In this document: in pieces, positions 1-59,037 of the stretch
How positions within the stretch are numbered: position 1 is the stretch's first letter
How the letters are laid out: each line of letters begins with the position of its first letter
Assembly (NCBI RefSeq): GCF_004959855.1
Contig: NZ_SPNT01000009.1
Coordinates: 118,739-182,738, forward strand
Length of the DNA stretch: 64,000 nt
From: Nitratireductor sp. XY-223
GTDB lineage: Bacteria; Pseudomonadota; Alphaproteobacteria; Rhizobiales; Rhizobiaceae
Direction of reading: 5' to 3'
Made by a program: the position numbers and the translations under genes
The notes under the pieces: model-generated
The model's database searches: none
What the model saw: the letters and a program-made list of their open reading frames with translations, nothing else
What the model was told of the DNA's origin: nothing

Positions 1-65
1 GCCTGCCCCCCTCGCGCGACATTGGGGTAAAGTGATGGCTTGATGCGTTTAACGCAAGGTAATTC

Positions 66-81
66 TTAAGGAAGGGTTAAC
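66..81. promoter_or_regulatory. CtrA box, perfect TTAA-N7-TTAAC (left-end copy)
   Basis: The sequence reads TTAA, seven bases, then TTAAC, the full CtrA recognition consensus known from Caulobacter and Rhizobiales. A weaker version (TTAA-N7-TAAT) lies just left at 49-63. No gene start lies within reach to the right, so the likely target is a gene beyond the left edge. The motif is plainly visible; CtrA binding is inferred. Confidence 0.6.
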
Positions 82-122
82 GGGCTTGACGCATTGCTAA
101 CCAAGGCGTTGCGGTGGTCGGT

Positions 123-131
123 TTATCCACA
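123..131 (+). promoter_or_regulatory. DnaA box (TTATCCACA)
   Basis: An exact match to the high-affinity DnaA-box consensus, 42 bases from the perfect CtrA box at 66-81 and just beyond the small-RNA terminator. A single 9-mer can occur by chance, so only its company with CtrA boxes makes it notable. It is not enough to propose a replication origin. Confidence 0.4.
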
Positions 132-148
132 AAAACAGGCATAAAGAC

Positions 149-173
149 AAAAAAAGAGCCGCATGGCGGCTCT
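149..173 (-). terminator. Rho-independent terminator (leftward)
   Basis: An 8-bp perfect stem (155-162 with 166-173) with a 3-base loop is followed on the minus strand by seven T (155-149). It ends the candidate small RNA and could also catch read-through from the DUF1192 gene. Confidence 0.85.
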
Positions 174-245
174 CAGAAGTTTAACAGGGAGGCATCAAAC
201 AGAATGACGCTCGGTCATCCGGTCCGAATCCAGAAGAACTGGATA
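149..245 (-). ncRNA. Candidate CtrA-controlled small RNA with anti-Shine-Dalgarno loop
   Basis: On the minus strand four hairpins follow one another. Hairpin 1 has a perfect 6-bp stem (228-233 with 239-244). Hairpin 2 has a 5-bp stem (204-208 with 214-218). Hairpin 3 has a 6-bp stem with one G-U pair (179-184 with 195-200), and its 10-base loop carries CCUCCC. The fourth is a rho-independent terminator (155-173) with a run of seven U. A perfect CtrA box at 269-284 would overlap the -35 region of a promoter starting near 245. A -10-like CATTAT lies at 257-252 on the minus strand, and GANTC sites lie at 226-230 and 257-261. No open reading frame of note lies inside. The layout resembles known alphaproteobacterial trans-acting small RNAs with exposed CUCC motifs. 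I do not recognise the family, and the start site is inferred. Confidence 0.65.
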
Positions 246-268
246 TCAACGATAATGACTCGTAAAGC

Positions 269-284
269 TTAACCGAGGGTTAAC
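269..284. promoter_or_regulatory. CtrA box, perfect TTAA-N7-TTAAC, upstream of candidate small RNA
   Basis: A full consensus CtrA site placed about 30 bases upstream of the inferred small-RNA start, a position typical of CtrA-activated promoters, where the box overlaps -35. It also lies downstream of the DUF1192 stop, so that gene is not the target. A GANTC site at 257-261 lies between box and start. Confidence 0.65.
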
Positions 285-352: not shown

Positions 353-541
353 CTACCGGAAAAGGGACTCCGCGTCGTCCTTGCTCTGTTGCTTCGAGGA
401 CTTTTCCTCCTCGAGTCGGGCAATTTCCTGCCTGAGAATGGCAATCCGGTCGTCCAGTTCGTCAACCGATATCAGCGAAAGATCACAACCGATTTCGTGT
501 GCAACGGGCTTTTTTTCCGCGTCGTCCTCAAAAATGGACAT
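353..541 (-). CDS. DUF1192 family small protein
   Basis: A 62-residue acidic protein of unknown role in the DUF1192 family, widespread in Alphaproteobacteria. The start at 541 is chosen because a strong Shine-Dalgarno (AAGGAGGAAA) directly precedes it. Upstream in-frame ATGs lack one. The first half is acidic and polar. The second half (about residues 25-50) is a charged helix with heptad-like spacing of Ile and Leu, compatible with a short coiled coil. It is divergent from the quinone oxidoreductase gene, with 94 bases between starts. DUF1192 proteins are often found beside this oxidoreductase in Rhizobiales. Function not known. Confidence 0.8.
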   Translation of the reverse strand: MSIFEDDAEKKPVAHEIGCDLSLISVDELDDRIAILRQEIARLEEEKSSKQQSKDDAESLFR

Positions 542-40236: not shown

Positions 40237-40252
40237 TTAACCGCAACTTAAC
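40237..40252. promoter_or_regulatory. CtrA box, perfect TTAA-N7-TTAAC, upstream of outer-membrane protein gene
   Basis: A full consensus CtrA site 80 bases before the start of the second outer-membrane protein gene and past the terminator of the first. CtrA is known to control outer-membrane composition in Brucella, so this fits. Binding is inferred. Confidence 0.6.
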
Positions 40253-40331: not shown

Positions 40332-41174
40332 ATGATCAAACGTGTATTGTCCCGTTCACTGATCGCCGCGTTGCTTGTGGGCGCCTCGAATGCAGCGCTG
40401 TCGGCGGACCTGGACAACATAATCTATGCGCCGGAACTGCCCAGGACCGTACCCGTGGAAGTGGGAAATGGCTGGTATCTGCGTGGCGATGTCAGCTACG
40501 ACTTCTCGACCGACGGTGACGCGACCTCTTTCAGGTCCTGGGATTTCAACACCAATACCGAAGGTCCTGCCGTGGCCTATTCATCGTCCTCGTTTGAGAC
40601 GGACTGGGGCGTTGGACTGGGCGTCGGATACCAGTTCACGAACTGGCTTCGCGCGGAAGGCATGCTGAACTACCAGCGCGGCACATTCAGCGCGACGAGC
40701 AGTGACGCGGCGGTCCCCTGTACGGGCCTCCTTGCGGACGGCTGTGACACCAGCGGCGCAGCGGATTTCACGTCATACGGCCTGATGGCCAACGGCTATA
40801 TCGACCTCGGCACCTATGCCGGCTTCACGCCCTATGTCGGCGCCGGCGCGGGCATGACCCTCGTTGATTATGACAGCTATGTCGCCTCGGAAACCTGCGT
40901 GGGCGCCTGCCCCGGCGGCACGACTCCGGTGACCGTCACGCATGCGGGCGAGGCGGACTGGCGCTTCACCTACGCCTTCATGGCCGGTGTTTCCTACGAG
41001 TTCATCCGCAACCTGAAAGCGGACCTGGGATACCGGTACACCAATGTCGACGGCGGCGACATCTACGGATTCGACACCACCTCGGCAGCGGCCGGCGCCA
41101 CCGGCATTCAGAGCTCCGACAACGGATATTCGACCCACGCGATCACCGCATCGCTGCGTTACGCCCTCTGGTAG
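40332..41174 (+). CDS. Outer-membrane beta-barrel protein
   Basis: A 280-residue outer-membrane protein with signal peptide (about 1-25, ending LSA). Barrel strands include WYLRGDVSYDF, WGVGLGVGYQFTNWLRAEG, FTPYVGAGAGMTLVDY and the C-terminal YSTHAITASLRYALW, which ends in an aromatic residue as outer-membrane proteins do. It is a diverged relative of the preceding gene, probably an old duplication. Likely CtrA-regulated through the box at 40237-40252. Terminator downstream. Confidence 0.85.
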   Translation: MIKRVLSRSLIAALLVGASNAALSADLDNIIYAPELPRTVPVEVGNGWYLRGDVSYDFSTDGDATSFRSWDFNTNTEGPAVAYSSSSFETDWGVGLGVGYQFTNWLRAEGMLNYQRGTFSATSSDAAVPCTGLLADGCDTSGAADFTSYGLMANGYIDLGTYAGFTPYVGAGAGMTLVDYDSYVASETCVGACPGGTTPVTVTHAGEADWRFTYAFMAGVSYEFIRNLKADLGYRYTNVDGGDIYGFDTTSAAAGATGIQSSDNGYSTHAITASLRYALW

Positions 41175-56846: not shown

Positions 56847-57482
56847 ATGTCTTCAAATCCCAATCTGACGCTTTCAGGATCAGACCTGGCGGCGCTCCTT
56901 TGCAGCCGGGTATGCCACGACATCATTTCCCCGGTGGGCGCCATCAACAACGGTCTGGAACTGCTTGACGAAGGTGGGGCAGACGAGGACGCGATGGACC
57001 TGATCCGGACCAGCGCGCACAATGCTTCGGTGCGGCTGAAATTCGCGCGCCTGGCGTTCGGCGCTTCCGGCTCCGTGGGCGCTTCGATCGATACCGGCGA
57101 GGCGGAAAAGGCGGTCATGGATTTCGCCAGCGCCGACAACAAGACCGAGATCACCTGGCAGGGCAGCCGGGCCATCGTCGCCAAGAACAAGGTGAAGCTG
57201 CTGCTGAACCTGTTCCTGGTCGCCTACGGGTCGATTCCGCGCGGCGGCGCCATTTCAATCATCCTCGAAGACCTCGAGACGGCTCCAAAATTCACCCTCA
57301 AGGCGAGTGGCAAGATGGTACGCGTGCCGCCCAAGTTCCTGGAAATCCACAGCGGTGAAAGCAGCGAGCCGATCGATGCGCATTCCATCCAGCCCTACTA
57401 CACGGTGCTTCTTGCCGAGGCCGCCGGAATGACGATCAATTCAACGGCCGGCGCCGATGAGGTCGTCTTTATCGCCGCATGA
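56847..57482 (+). CDS. chpT: Histidine phosphotransferase ChpT
   Basis: A 211-residue protein that relays phosphate from CckA to CtrA and CpdR. The phospho-accepting His is residue 24 in RVCHDIISPVGAINNGLELL, the dimerising helix. A degenerate ATPase-like domain follows (about 100-210). An AGAAGGAG ribosome site precedes the start. Its target CtrA is encoded 1 kb away. Confidence 0.94.
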   Translation: MSSNPNLTLSGSDLAALLCSRVCHDIISPVGAINNGLELLDEGGADEDAMDLIRTSAHNASVRLKFARLAFGASGSVGASIDTGEAEKAVMDFASADNKTEITWQGSRAIVAKNKVKLLLNLFLVAYGSIPRGGAISIILEDLETAPKFTLKASGKMVRVPPKFLEIHSGESSEPIDAHSIQPYYTVLLAEAAGMTINSTAGADEVVFIAA

Positions 57483-57516
57483 CGGATGGGCGTCCGACCC
57501 CGGCGTGTCCGGGGCA

Positions 57517-57531
57517 TTAAGCGTAAATTAA
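57517..57531. promoter_or_regulatory. CtrA box, perfect TTAA-N7-TTAA, upstream of receiver gene
   Basis: A consensus site 133 bases before the receiver gene start and 35 bases after the chpT stop. Another TAACC lies at 57541. It suggests the receiver gene has its own CtrA-controlled promoter, apart from chpT. Confidence 0.55.
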
Positions 57532-57663
57532 TCCTCTCTGGTAACCAATTCTTACTCTCTGACAACTAGAGTCAGTGCCATGACGGGGCGACATTGGTCT
57601 GCCCTTCGCGGGTGCAAGCGGCTGTTAGGCGGCGATGTGCCCGGGGGTCTGTATTGGGGAGAT

Positions 57664-58035
57664 ATGACGATGCAACGGCTGATTTTGGTCGATAAATCGG
57701 TGATTATTCGCAAGGTGGCGAAGCGTATCCTTTCGGACCTTGGGTTCCTGGTTTCGGAAGCGGACGACGCGCAGACGGCGCTTTCGATCTGCAAGGGTCG
57801 CGTGCCAGCGGTCATGATCGTTGATGCCTGCCTGCCCGGCGCCACGGACCTTATTGAAGAGGTTCGGGAGCTTCCCGGCGGCGACAAGGTGAAAATCTAC
57901 TACTGCCTCATCGAGGGCAAGCTCAAGCACATGATGCAGGGCAAGCGCGCTGGCGCGGATGATTTTCTGCTCAAGCCGTTCGACCGGGAAATCCTTACGA
58001 AAGTCTTCTCCGACCAGTCGAAGACCGCCGCCTGA
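57664..58035 (+). CDS. Atypical single-domain response regulator
   Basis: A 123-residue stand-alone receiver domain. The phospho-accepting Asp is probably residue 54 in MIVDACLPG, and the conserved Lys is residue 104 in LLKPFD. The acidic pair is VDKS: Asp10 kept, the second acid replaced by Lys11. The switch Thr/Ser site is Leu82. It is therefore likely to phosphorylate poorly or act without phosphorylation. The start with GGGGAG upstream is used. It lies between chpT and ctrA; not DivK or CpdR by sequence. Role unknown. Confidence 0.8.
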   Translation: MTMQRLILVDKSVIIRKVAKRILSDLGFLVSEADDAQTALSICKGRVPAVMIVDACLPGATDLIEEVRELPGGDKVKIYYCLIEGKLKHMMQGKRAGADDFLLKPFDREILTKVFSDQSKTAA

Positions 58036-58335
58036 GCGGCGGTATCGCCTGGCTGAAGAGCAGCGGGTCCGGCCGACGGCCGGAGATCGCGAATGCCGTT
58101 CGCCCAGCGGGCCTGTAAACCTTTCAGTCTGATTCTTTTCATCCGTCGGGGCACCGCCGAAAGCGCGCTCGCCCGTTGTTTTACAGTAGCCTCGCCATGT
58201 GATCCGGCGCGCACGCGGGGCCGGCGTTAATGCCGTGTTTACCGGCCGGATTAAGCAAAACCGCACAGGAAAAACCCGCCGGAAGCGTTGCTTCGGCGGG
58301 TTAGATGATGCTTTGAGTGGAGCGCCGACTAAGGC
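58036..58335. other. Convergent intergenic region, receiver gene / ctrA
   Basis: A 300-base gap. A CCGGCC/GGCCGG hairpin at about 58071-58085 may end the receiver transcript. A near-CtrA motif TTAA-N7-TTTA is at 58227-58241, in a place where no promoter is expected. The ctrA terminator lies at 58269-58302. No gene is seen. Confidence 0.4.
58269..58302 (-). terminator. Rho-independent terminator of ctrA
   Basis: On the minus strand a 13-bp GC-rich stem (58273-58286 with 58290-58302, one bulge) is followed by a run of T. It lies 34 bases after the ctrA stop. Confidence 0.88.
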
Positions 58336-59037
58336 TCAGGCGCTTTCGAGAATCTCGCTGTCTTCCGGTTCGCGCAGCACATAACCGCGCCCCCACACCG
58401 TTTCGATGTAGTTGCGCCCCCCGGCCGCAGTTGCCAGCTTCTTGCGCAACTTGCAGATGAATACGTCGATGATCTTCAGTTCCGGTTCGTCCATTCCGCC
58501 GTACAGATGGTTGAGGAACATTTCCTTGGTCAGGGTCGTGCCCTTGCGCAGGGAAAGCAGCTCCAGCATCTGGTATTCCTTGCCGGTCAGATGCACGCGC
58601 TGGCCGCTGACCTCGACGGTCTTGGCATCGAGATTGACCAGCAGGTCGCCGGTGGTGATCACCGACTGGGCGTGCCCCTTGGAACGGCGGACGATGGCGT
58701 GAATGCGGGCGATCAGCTCGTCCTTGTGGAACGGTTTGGTCATATAATCGTCGGCGCCGAAGCCGAGACCCCTGACCTTGTCTTCAATGCCGGCCATGCC
58801 GGACAGGATCAGTATCGGTGTTTTGACCTTGGAAAGGCGAAGGGTCCGCAGCACTTCGTAGCCCGACATGTCGGGAAGGTTCAGATCCAGCAGGATGATG
58901 TCGTAGTCATATAATTTGCCGAGATCCACGCCTTCTTCACCGAGGTCGGTGGTATACACATTGAAACTTTCCGACTTGAGCATCAGCTCGATGCTCTGCG
59001 CCGTCGCGCTGTCGTCCTCGATCAATAATACCCGCAT
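58336..59037 (-). CDS. ctrA: Cell cycle response regulator CtrA
   Basis: A 233-residue OmpR-type regulator, the master cell-cycle regulator of Alphaproteobacteria. Receiver domain: acidic triad EDDS, phospho-Asp51 in LLDLNLPD, and Lys in MTKPF. The DNA-binding domain (about 125-225) contains [17 protein letters not shown] and a recognition helix in [13 protein letters not shown]; the C-terminal ESA tail is the degradation-linked end. The ATG at 59037 gives MRVLLIEDD. It is the probable binder of the CtrA boxes in this window. Confidence 0.98.

Follow-up and report, generated by a model that had tools for sequence, protein, structure and literature searches.

What is encoded between the DUF1192 gene and rcdA in Nitratireductor sp. 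XY-223, and what does the CtrA box found there control? The interval lies at the left end of the stretch of 64,000 nucleotides that we analyzed (hereafter, the window). An earlier note had read in it a CtrA-activated small RNA with three hairpins and a rho-independent terminator, the third hairpin presenting an anti-Shine-Dalgarno loop. Follow-up analysis confirmed the observation in part: the CtrA box, two GANTC sites, a -10-like CATTAT, two hairpins and the terminator are present, and the third hairpin was not confirmed. The interpretation was likewise supported in part; neither the family to which the RNA belongs nor its linkage to rcdA had been recognized. Coordinates are given in Table 1.

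Table 1. Features of the RNA locus (window positions, unless otherwise indicated).
Feature	Position	Strand	Basis
DUF1192 gene, upstream neighbor, same strand as the RNA	353-541	-	PF06698, 70 bits
CtrA box TTAACCGAGGGTTAA (minus strand: TTAACCCTCGGTTAA), -24 to -38 of the predicted start	269-283		conserved position, variable spacer
-10-like hexamer CATTAT	252-257	-	read by eye; AT-rich consensus at the same spacing in 139 box-anchored promoters
Small RNA gene, about 97 nt (RF02356, BjrC1505)	149-245	-	covariance match 149-290, fold z
Stem-loop 1 (SL1)	228-244	-	fold and covariation: 3 of 5 counted pairs two-sided, 96.7% of cells paired
Stem-loop 2 (SL2)	202-220	-	fold and covariation: 4 of 6 counted pairs two-sided, 97.3% of cells paired
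Seed GAUGCCUCCCUGUU, mostly single-stranded, anti-Shine-Dalgarno	183-196	-	conservation and unpaired probability
Intrinsic terminator, stem 174-154 plus U7 tail	149-174	-	terminator call and covariation
Another perfect CtrA box, TTAAGGAAGGGTTAA, past the RNA terminator and ahead of rcdA	66-80		motif scan
Leader region towards rcdA	1-148	-	rcdA lies outside the window
rcdA	L001:1287-765, start 66 bases left of window position 1	-	family models

The RNA family and its fold

The Rfam search that the earlier note had proposed identified the element: the minus strand from 290 to 149 is a full-length match to RF02356 (BjrC1505, an alphaproteobacterial small RNA), with 63.6 bits and an E value of 1.1e-11, above the 50-bit cut-off for membership. 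The RNA is genuine but belongs to an already catalogued family and is not new. A different identity, suhB/mmgR (RF00519), was rejected because the same DNA scored 20.1 bits against the 41 required. RF02356 is single-copy in the source genome. Matches at E 0.001 were found in 52 of 61 genomes of relatives, 41 of them above the cut-off; the order-level set gave 254 out of 297 (222 above the cut-off), the source genome being counted in both cases. At class level, 28 of 241 genomes had a match, 14 above the cut-off, in a set that takes in the source genome and a few further genomes of the same order. None of 14 control genomes, Caulobacter vibrioides among them, gave a match. Taken together, the counts depict a family found mainly in one order, with scattered members elsewhere.

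Comparative analysis made use of at least 118 loci of the order fetched by a 17-base RNA motif, plus 58 found by the covariance model. Anchoring failed in 10 of the 118 and in one of the 58, and 165 places were anchored. Four motif-fetched loci with at least two box mismatches and no rcdA (L062, L077, L103 and L105) look like chance matches and were scored as misses. Linkage to rcdA was found at 147 places, reduced to 144 once identical stretches were removed, and some genomes are possibly present twice (L015 and L061). Sixty-one diverse loci were picked from the 144, and alignment A1 was made with 50 divergent sequences, including that of the source; 11 loci were omitted by hand, and 27 of the 50 rows are motif-fetched.

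The exact 5' end of the RNA is a prediction: it was placed at 245 on the basis of the -10-like CATTAT and of the size of SmelC671 (100 nt), the Sinorhizobium meliloti RNA discussed below. The 97 nt of minus strand thus delimited fold with -35.5 kcal/mol (z -5.28), a stability equaled by none of 200 shuffles. SL1, SL2 and the terminator, which are consensus stems of RF02356, are paired in 95.2% of the cells of A1, and 13 of their 19 pairs show two-sided changes, with 39 such cells. Shuffled alignments gave means of 90.9% paired, 3.5 two-sided pairs and 4.9 cells, and none out of 500 was as high; when the partners were slid by 1-3 columns, pairing dropped to 33-57%.

The covariation expected in the earlier note is therefore found in these three stems; the third hairpin (GUUUGA with UUAAAC, loop UGCCUCCCUG) stays at shuffle level. 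Over the 50 sequences it shows no two-sided change, and its pairing is 76.7% versus 76.9% in shuffles. In the window sequence its probability is about 5%, and it is missing from the minimum-energy fold, in which GUUUGA is occupied by an outer helix of SL2. On these grounds the third hairpin was rejected.

The promoter and its gene neighborhood

Perfect TTAA-N7-TTAA sites are rare in the window: four in 64 kb versus 0.08 expected, and two of them (66-80 and 269-283) are at the RNA locus. When we examined whether the promoter box is conserved, loci fetched by the RNA motif alone were counted apart, since the Rfam model itself contains the box stretch. The search in these motif-only loci was limited to 45 bases at the expected promoter place. 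Among the matches listed, 100 of 108 had a box with one mismatch at most, and 45 had an exact one. At spacers of 5, 6, 8 and 9 bases no exact box was present among the matches listed, while 10, 45, 7 and 5 loci, respectively, had one with up to one mismatch; the count of 45 at spacer 6 is perhaps high because shifted TTTAC variants fit. Model-found loci behaved similarly (56 of 57 with up to one mismatch, 23 exact, versus two exact at spacer 5 and one at spacer 8).

For the rcdA-linked loci the figures are 139 of 144 with up to one mismatch and 58 exact. Dinucleotide shuffles of the same loci gave means of 12.3 (maximum 19) and 1.1 (maximum 3), and a background of stretches away from the RNA contained three exact boxes in 17,191 windows. 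In box-anchored sequences, conservation of the TTAA halves is 91-100% at every base but the third (A in 61%, otherwise T), figures that are inflated by the anchoring itself; 84% have C right after the first half, and conservation at spacer bases 6-10 is no higher than 35-48%. Class-wide, 14 of 19 loci could be anchored, and a wider search stretch yielded a box with up to one mismatch in 13 of these and an exact box in six, counts that include one locus of the same order (L410) and come from loci found with a model that includes the promoter.

The box thus adjoins the promoter, as would be the case in a CtrA-controlled small RNA, and this footprinting strongly supports CtrA control of the RNA. 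The activation claimed in the earlier note is suggested by the position of the box; both the binding of CtrA at this box and its sign are predictions made from DNA sequence. CtrA also acts as a repressor, and a box lying over the -35 region is compatible with either sign.

Location of the box has a consequence for the Rfam model. The CtrA box aligns to model positions 8-22, so that the 5' part of RF02356 looks like a promoter rather than RNA. Across 97 sequences, the share of paired cells is 45% for the first of the four helices modelled at positions 1-43, 34% for the second, 45% for the third and 52% for the fourth. Pairing in helices two and four stays at shuffle level; helices one and three, though poorly paired, were equaled by only 0 and 1, respectively, of 300 shuffles. 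For this test the columns were lined up on the box, ungapped and without alignment to the model, and the register may therefore slip downstream. Together with the size of SmelC671 (100 nt), this suggests promoter DNA in the first 40-45 positions of the model. Positions 1-43 (248-290 in the window) seem to be promoter DNA with a CtrA box that has been modelled as structured RNA. The low 5' pairing counts against that part of the model and not against membership by score, and the conserved CtrA promoter suggests that the model should be trimmed.

Two GANTC sites had been pointed out in the earlier note, and they are present at 226-230 and 257-261. Control by GANTC/CcrM was nevertheless rejected. 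At the promoter, GANTC shows no conservation: 13 of 144 loci have it there, and 8 and 7 have it in the two stretches used as controls. GANTC is commoner in the SL1/SL2 region (39 of 144, versus 12, 12 and 16 in controls); there it overlaps the conserved stem CTGGAT and may be a by-product of it. Over the whole window, GANTC is strongly depleted, with 150 sites versus 327 expected from shuffles.

RcdA is an adaptor in CtrA proteolysis. The identity of the downstream gene is supported by PF07323, by the solved RcdA structure 3ctw (2e-30) and by the NCBIfam RcdA equivalog NF051867 (208 bits, cut-off 170). The RNA is directly upstream of a same-strand rcdA in 132 of the 144 loci having more than 900 bases downstream. 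The placement given in the earlier note, upstream of DUF1192, is incorrect, as the RNA lies downstream of that gene. Twelve loci have no same-strand rcdA downstream, L091 among them; in L091 the motif is found between rcdA and DUF1192 in antisense orientation to both genes, so that the RNA gene appears to be inverted. A further CtrA box is found in the rcdA leader, exact in 32 of 144 loci and with up to one mismatch in 54, versus 0-4 exact at other spacers. Outside the order, seven loci (L407, L408, L409, L411, L419, L420 and L422) have the RNA and a CtrA box and no rcdA in the fetched stretch; the box of L422 is at an unusual distance.

Other elements of interest are present in the window. 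The ctrA gene itself is found at 58336-59037 (minus strand), clustered with chpT (an NCBIfam equivalog) and a single-receiver gene within 56847-59037. We take the receiver gene to be CpdR-like, a name that no family model assigned. A perfect CtrA box lies between chpT and the receiver gene (57517-57531), and another one (40237-40251) about 80 bases ahead of an open reading frame (40332-41174, plus strand) whose product looks by eye like an outer-membrane beta-barrel protein.

The seed motif and its candidate targets

The anti-Shine-Dalgarno motif announced in the earlier note is real and conserved; it is, however, mostly single-stranded and not a hairpin loop, with unpaired probabilities of 0.65-0.99 across CCUCCCUG. 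Conservation resides in the sequence GAYGCCUCCCUGUU as such. Its invariance in motif-fetched loci is by construction, as the fetch used the 17-base motif and the anchor requires GAYGCCTCC(C/T). A fair count comes from loci found by the covariance model, even if high-scoring loci favor the consensus: the complete GAYGCCTCCCTGTT is carried by 52 of the 58 order-level loci and by 16 of 19 in the class-wide search.

Direct pairing with ctrA, gcrA or rcdA was considered and gave no consistent result. No consistent strong pairing was detected over 26 ctrA starts (from 27 loci) and 13 gcrA starts (from 30 loci) of relatives, many of whose ctrA starts have AGGGGA. An exact complement of at least 7 bases is found near the start of 32 of 141 rcdA genes, compared with 8 of 81 for DUF1192, 1 of 96 for QOR and 1 of 88 for L31; rcdA also had the lowest mean duplex energy of the genes compared, and many start codons are uncertain. 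No conserved target emerged from these comparisons. As a CUCCC motif can pair with many strong ribosome sites, its pairing may be unspecific.

Among the mRNA starts of the source genome that carry CAGGGAGG (L177-L206 and L324-L343), solute-binding proteins of the ABC, TRAP and TctC types are frequent. Such proteins account for 12 of 34 open frames at CAGGGAGG starts and 1 of 18 at starts with the control CAAGGAGG (p 0.017). The class was picked after looking, the p value is uncorrected for this choice, the control is small, and the comparison is a hint only. The count of 1 in 18 leaves out L294, whose frame begins at an internal ATG and matches the final part of a solute-binding protein; if this internal hit is included the control becomes 2 of 18 (p 0.058). 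Inspection covered 51 of 54 matches for CAGGGAGG and the first 30 of 54 for CAAGGAGG; the scan took in 16 of 18 control proteins and omitted L314 and L323, internal starts by eye, and 35 matches to AGGGAGGC served for ranking only. In a distant relative (G232), the enrichment was not repeated by eye among the first 30 of 50 and of 44 matches. An enrichment in solute-binding proteins would be in keeping with nutrient uptake being tied to the stage of the cell cycle. Repression of GGGAGG-type mRNAs by the RNA is plausible.

Interpretation and comparison with known systems

Family membership, structure, a conserved seed, a conserved box and linkage to rcdA are established here. The explanation that we regard as rather probable is that a CtrA-activated, trans-acting RNA of the BjrC1505/SmelC671 family blocks the GGGAGG-type ribosome sites of a set of mRNAs. 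Phosphorylated CtrA would bind TTAA-N7-TTAA at about -24 to -38 and activate transcription. An RNA of about 97 nt would be produced that ends at its own terminator ahead of the next gene, rcdA, and would carry two hairpins, the exposed seed and the terminator, in this order. While CtrA is active, the seed would pair with the ribosome-binding sites of its putative target set and repress their translation.

The same box might have the opposite effect. Because it spans the -35 region, a bound factor could block the polymerase, and the RNA would be made when CtrA is low, for instance in stalked or differentiating cells. We deem this unlikely, although some data from S. meliloti fit it. A 2008 survey enters a sigma-70 promoter for Sm84 (PMC2573895), an indication that an activator may be unneeded. 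The table of a 2020 review lists SmelC671 expression in nodule zone II; in that table, however, the promoter-motif and Hfq cells of SmelC671 are empty (PMC7143759). Furthermore, the position of the box fits activation equally well, and a precedent for its geometry exists in ccnA, which is presumably activated by CtrA from a box at -23 from the start (PMC8959179). An interpretation that dispenses with trans action views the element chiefly as a leader or attenuator of rcdA: transcription would start at the box and be mostly terminated, read-through would set the level of RcdA, and the short RNA would be a by-product. The immediate vicinity of a same-strand rcdA in 132 of 144 loci speaks in its favor. 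Yet the strictest conservation resides in a 14-base stretch with no consistent complement near the rcdA start, rather than in a pairing alternative to the terminator; in many loci a CtrA box is present in the rcdA leader itself (exact in 32 of 144); and some other Alphaproteobacteria keep RNA and box with no rcdA in the fetched stretch. We consider this interpretation improbable. Still more improbable is an RNA that acts like CcnA on the translation of ctrA and gcrA. A CtrA box, an unpaired C-rich motif, a cell-cycle locus and the AGGGGA of many ctrA starts would all suit it, but the pairing predicted over the 26 ctrA and 13 gcrA starts is inconsistent, and RF02356 is silent in the 14 controls, which include C. 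vibrioides. In turn, CcnA uses CCCC against GGGG and is encoded at the origin of replication, and no CcnA-like homolog is reported as clearly detected in S. meliloti (PMC8959179).

A tentative extension, possible but short of probable, is that BjrC1505/SmelC671 makes up an unrecognized RNA arm of the CtrA circuit of Hyphomicrobiales, and that the CtrA sites at the rcdA promoter of S. meliloti drive the RNA instead of rcdA. On this view, CtrA would work at two levels, by transcription and by way of an anti-Shine-Dalgarno RNA of wide conservation whose gene adjoins that of the adaptor for CtrA degradation. ChIP-seq in S. meliloti detected CtrA sites at the rcdA promoter, and CtrA depletion left rcdA expression unchanged (PMC4433202); the RNA promoter offers an answer to this occupancy without change in rcdA. 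A CtrA promoter next to rcdA also provides a catalogued RNA with a likely regulator and a physiological setting.

Comparison with known RNAs, based on passages of the published accounts, helps to place the element. The anti-Shine-Dalgarno RNAs SmelA075 and SmelA099 share an exposed CCUCC-type motif; they have, however, three or four hairpins, CCUCCUCCC-type loops and several copies per genome. EcpR1 (SmelC291), to which the earlier note had likened the RNA, likewise acts in trans in rhizobia and is linked to the cell cycle. It was rejected as the nearest relative because its locus is different (between divK-pleD and rpmG) and so is its active loop, UCCGCCGCAUCU; the UCCUCG loop of EcpR1 is a second, less conserved one, and EcpR1 belongs to the stringent-response regulon (PMC4414408). 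On reading the 97-nt RNA, the SL1 loop UCCGCCGCAUCU of EcpR1 is absent. CcnA of Caulobacter resembles the RNA in having a CtrA box just 5' of its start and a C-rich motif thought to be active at ribosome sites, and differs in its length (182 nt), its location at the replication origin and its CCCC loop, and in the silence of RF02356 in the Caulobacter control.

Closer likeness is found in two entries. BjrC1505 (RF02356) matches in sequence and structure over 149-290, above the cut-off; the difference is that the Rfam model also takes in about 45 positions 5' of the likely transcript, with the CtrA promoter drawn as folded RNA. SmelC671, also known as Sm84 and ReC71 (RFM SmelC671), is a single-copy chromosomal RNA of 100 nt detected by RNA-seq (PMC2873474), with hairpins on either side of a conserved unpaired CUCCCUGU, a 3' terminator and a location between two same-strand genes; an unpaired CUCCCUGU between variable hairpins is also found in the RNA described here. 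The family is broadly distributed, with extensive microsynteny (PMC3927594). In the 2008 survey, Sm84 lies between SMc03988 and SMc03989 and is transcribed in the same direction; its expected size was about 110 nt, the Northern band was about 80 nt, and a microarray signal was recorded under all six stress conditions listed (PMC2573895). Locus orientation agrees in both organisms, and from conserved gene order rcdA is predicted to follow Sm84. The literature searched, in which the 2012 Bradyrhizobium small RNA paper by Madhugiri and colleagues figures as a reference only, yielded no function of BjrC1505/SmelC671 and no CtrA link for it, and in the latter respect SmelC671 as described differs from the RNA of this study. 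Compared by description, SmelC671/Sm84 is likely the orthologue of the RNA; what the present analysis adds to the catalogued family, as new and well supported, is a conserved CtrA promoter and linkage to rcdA.
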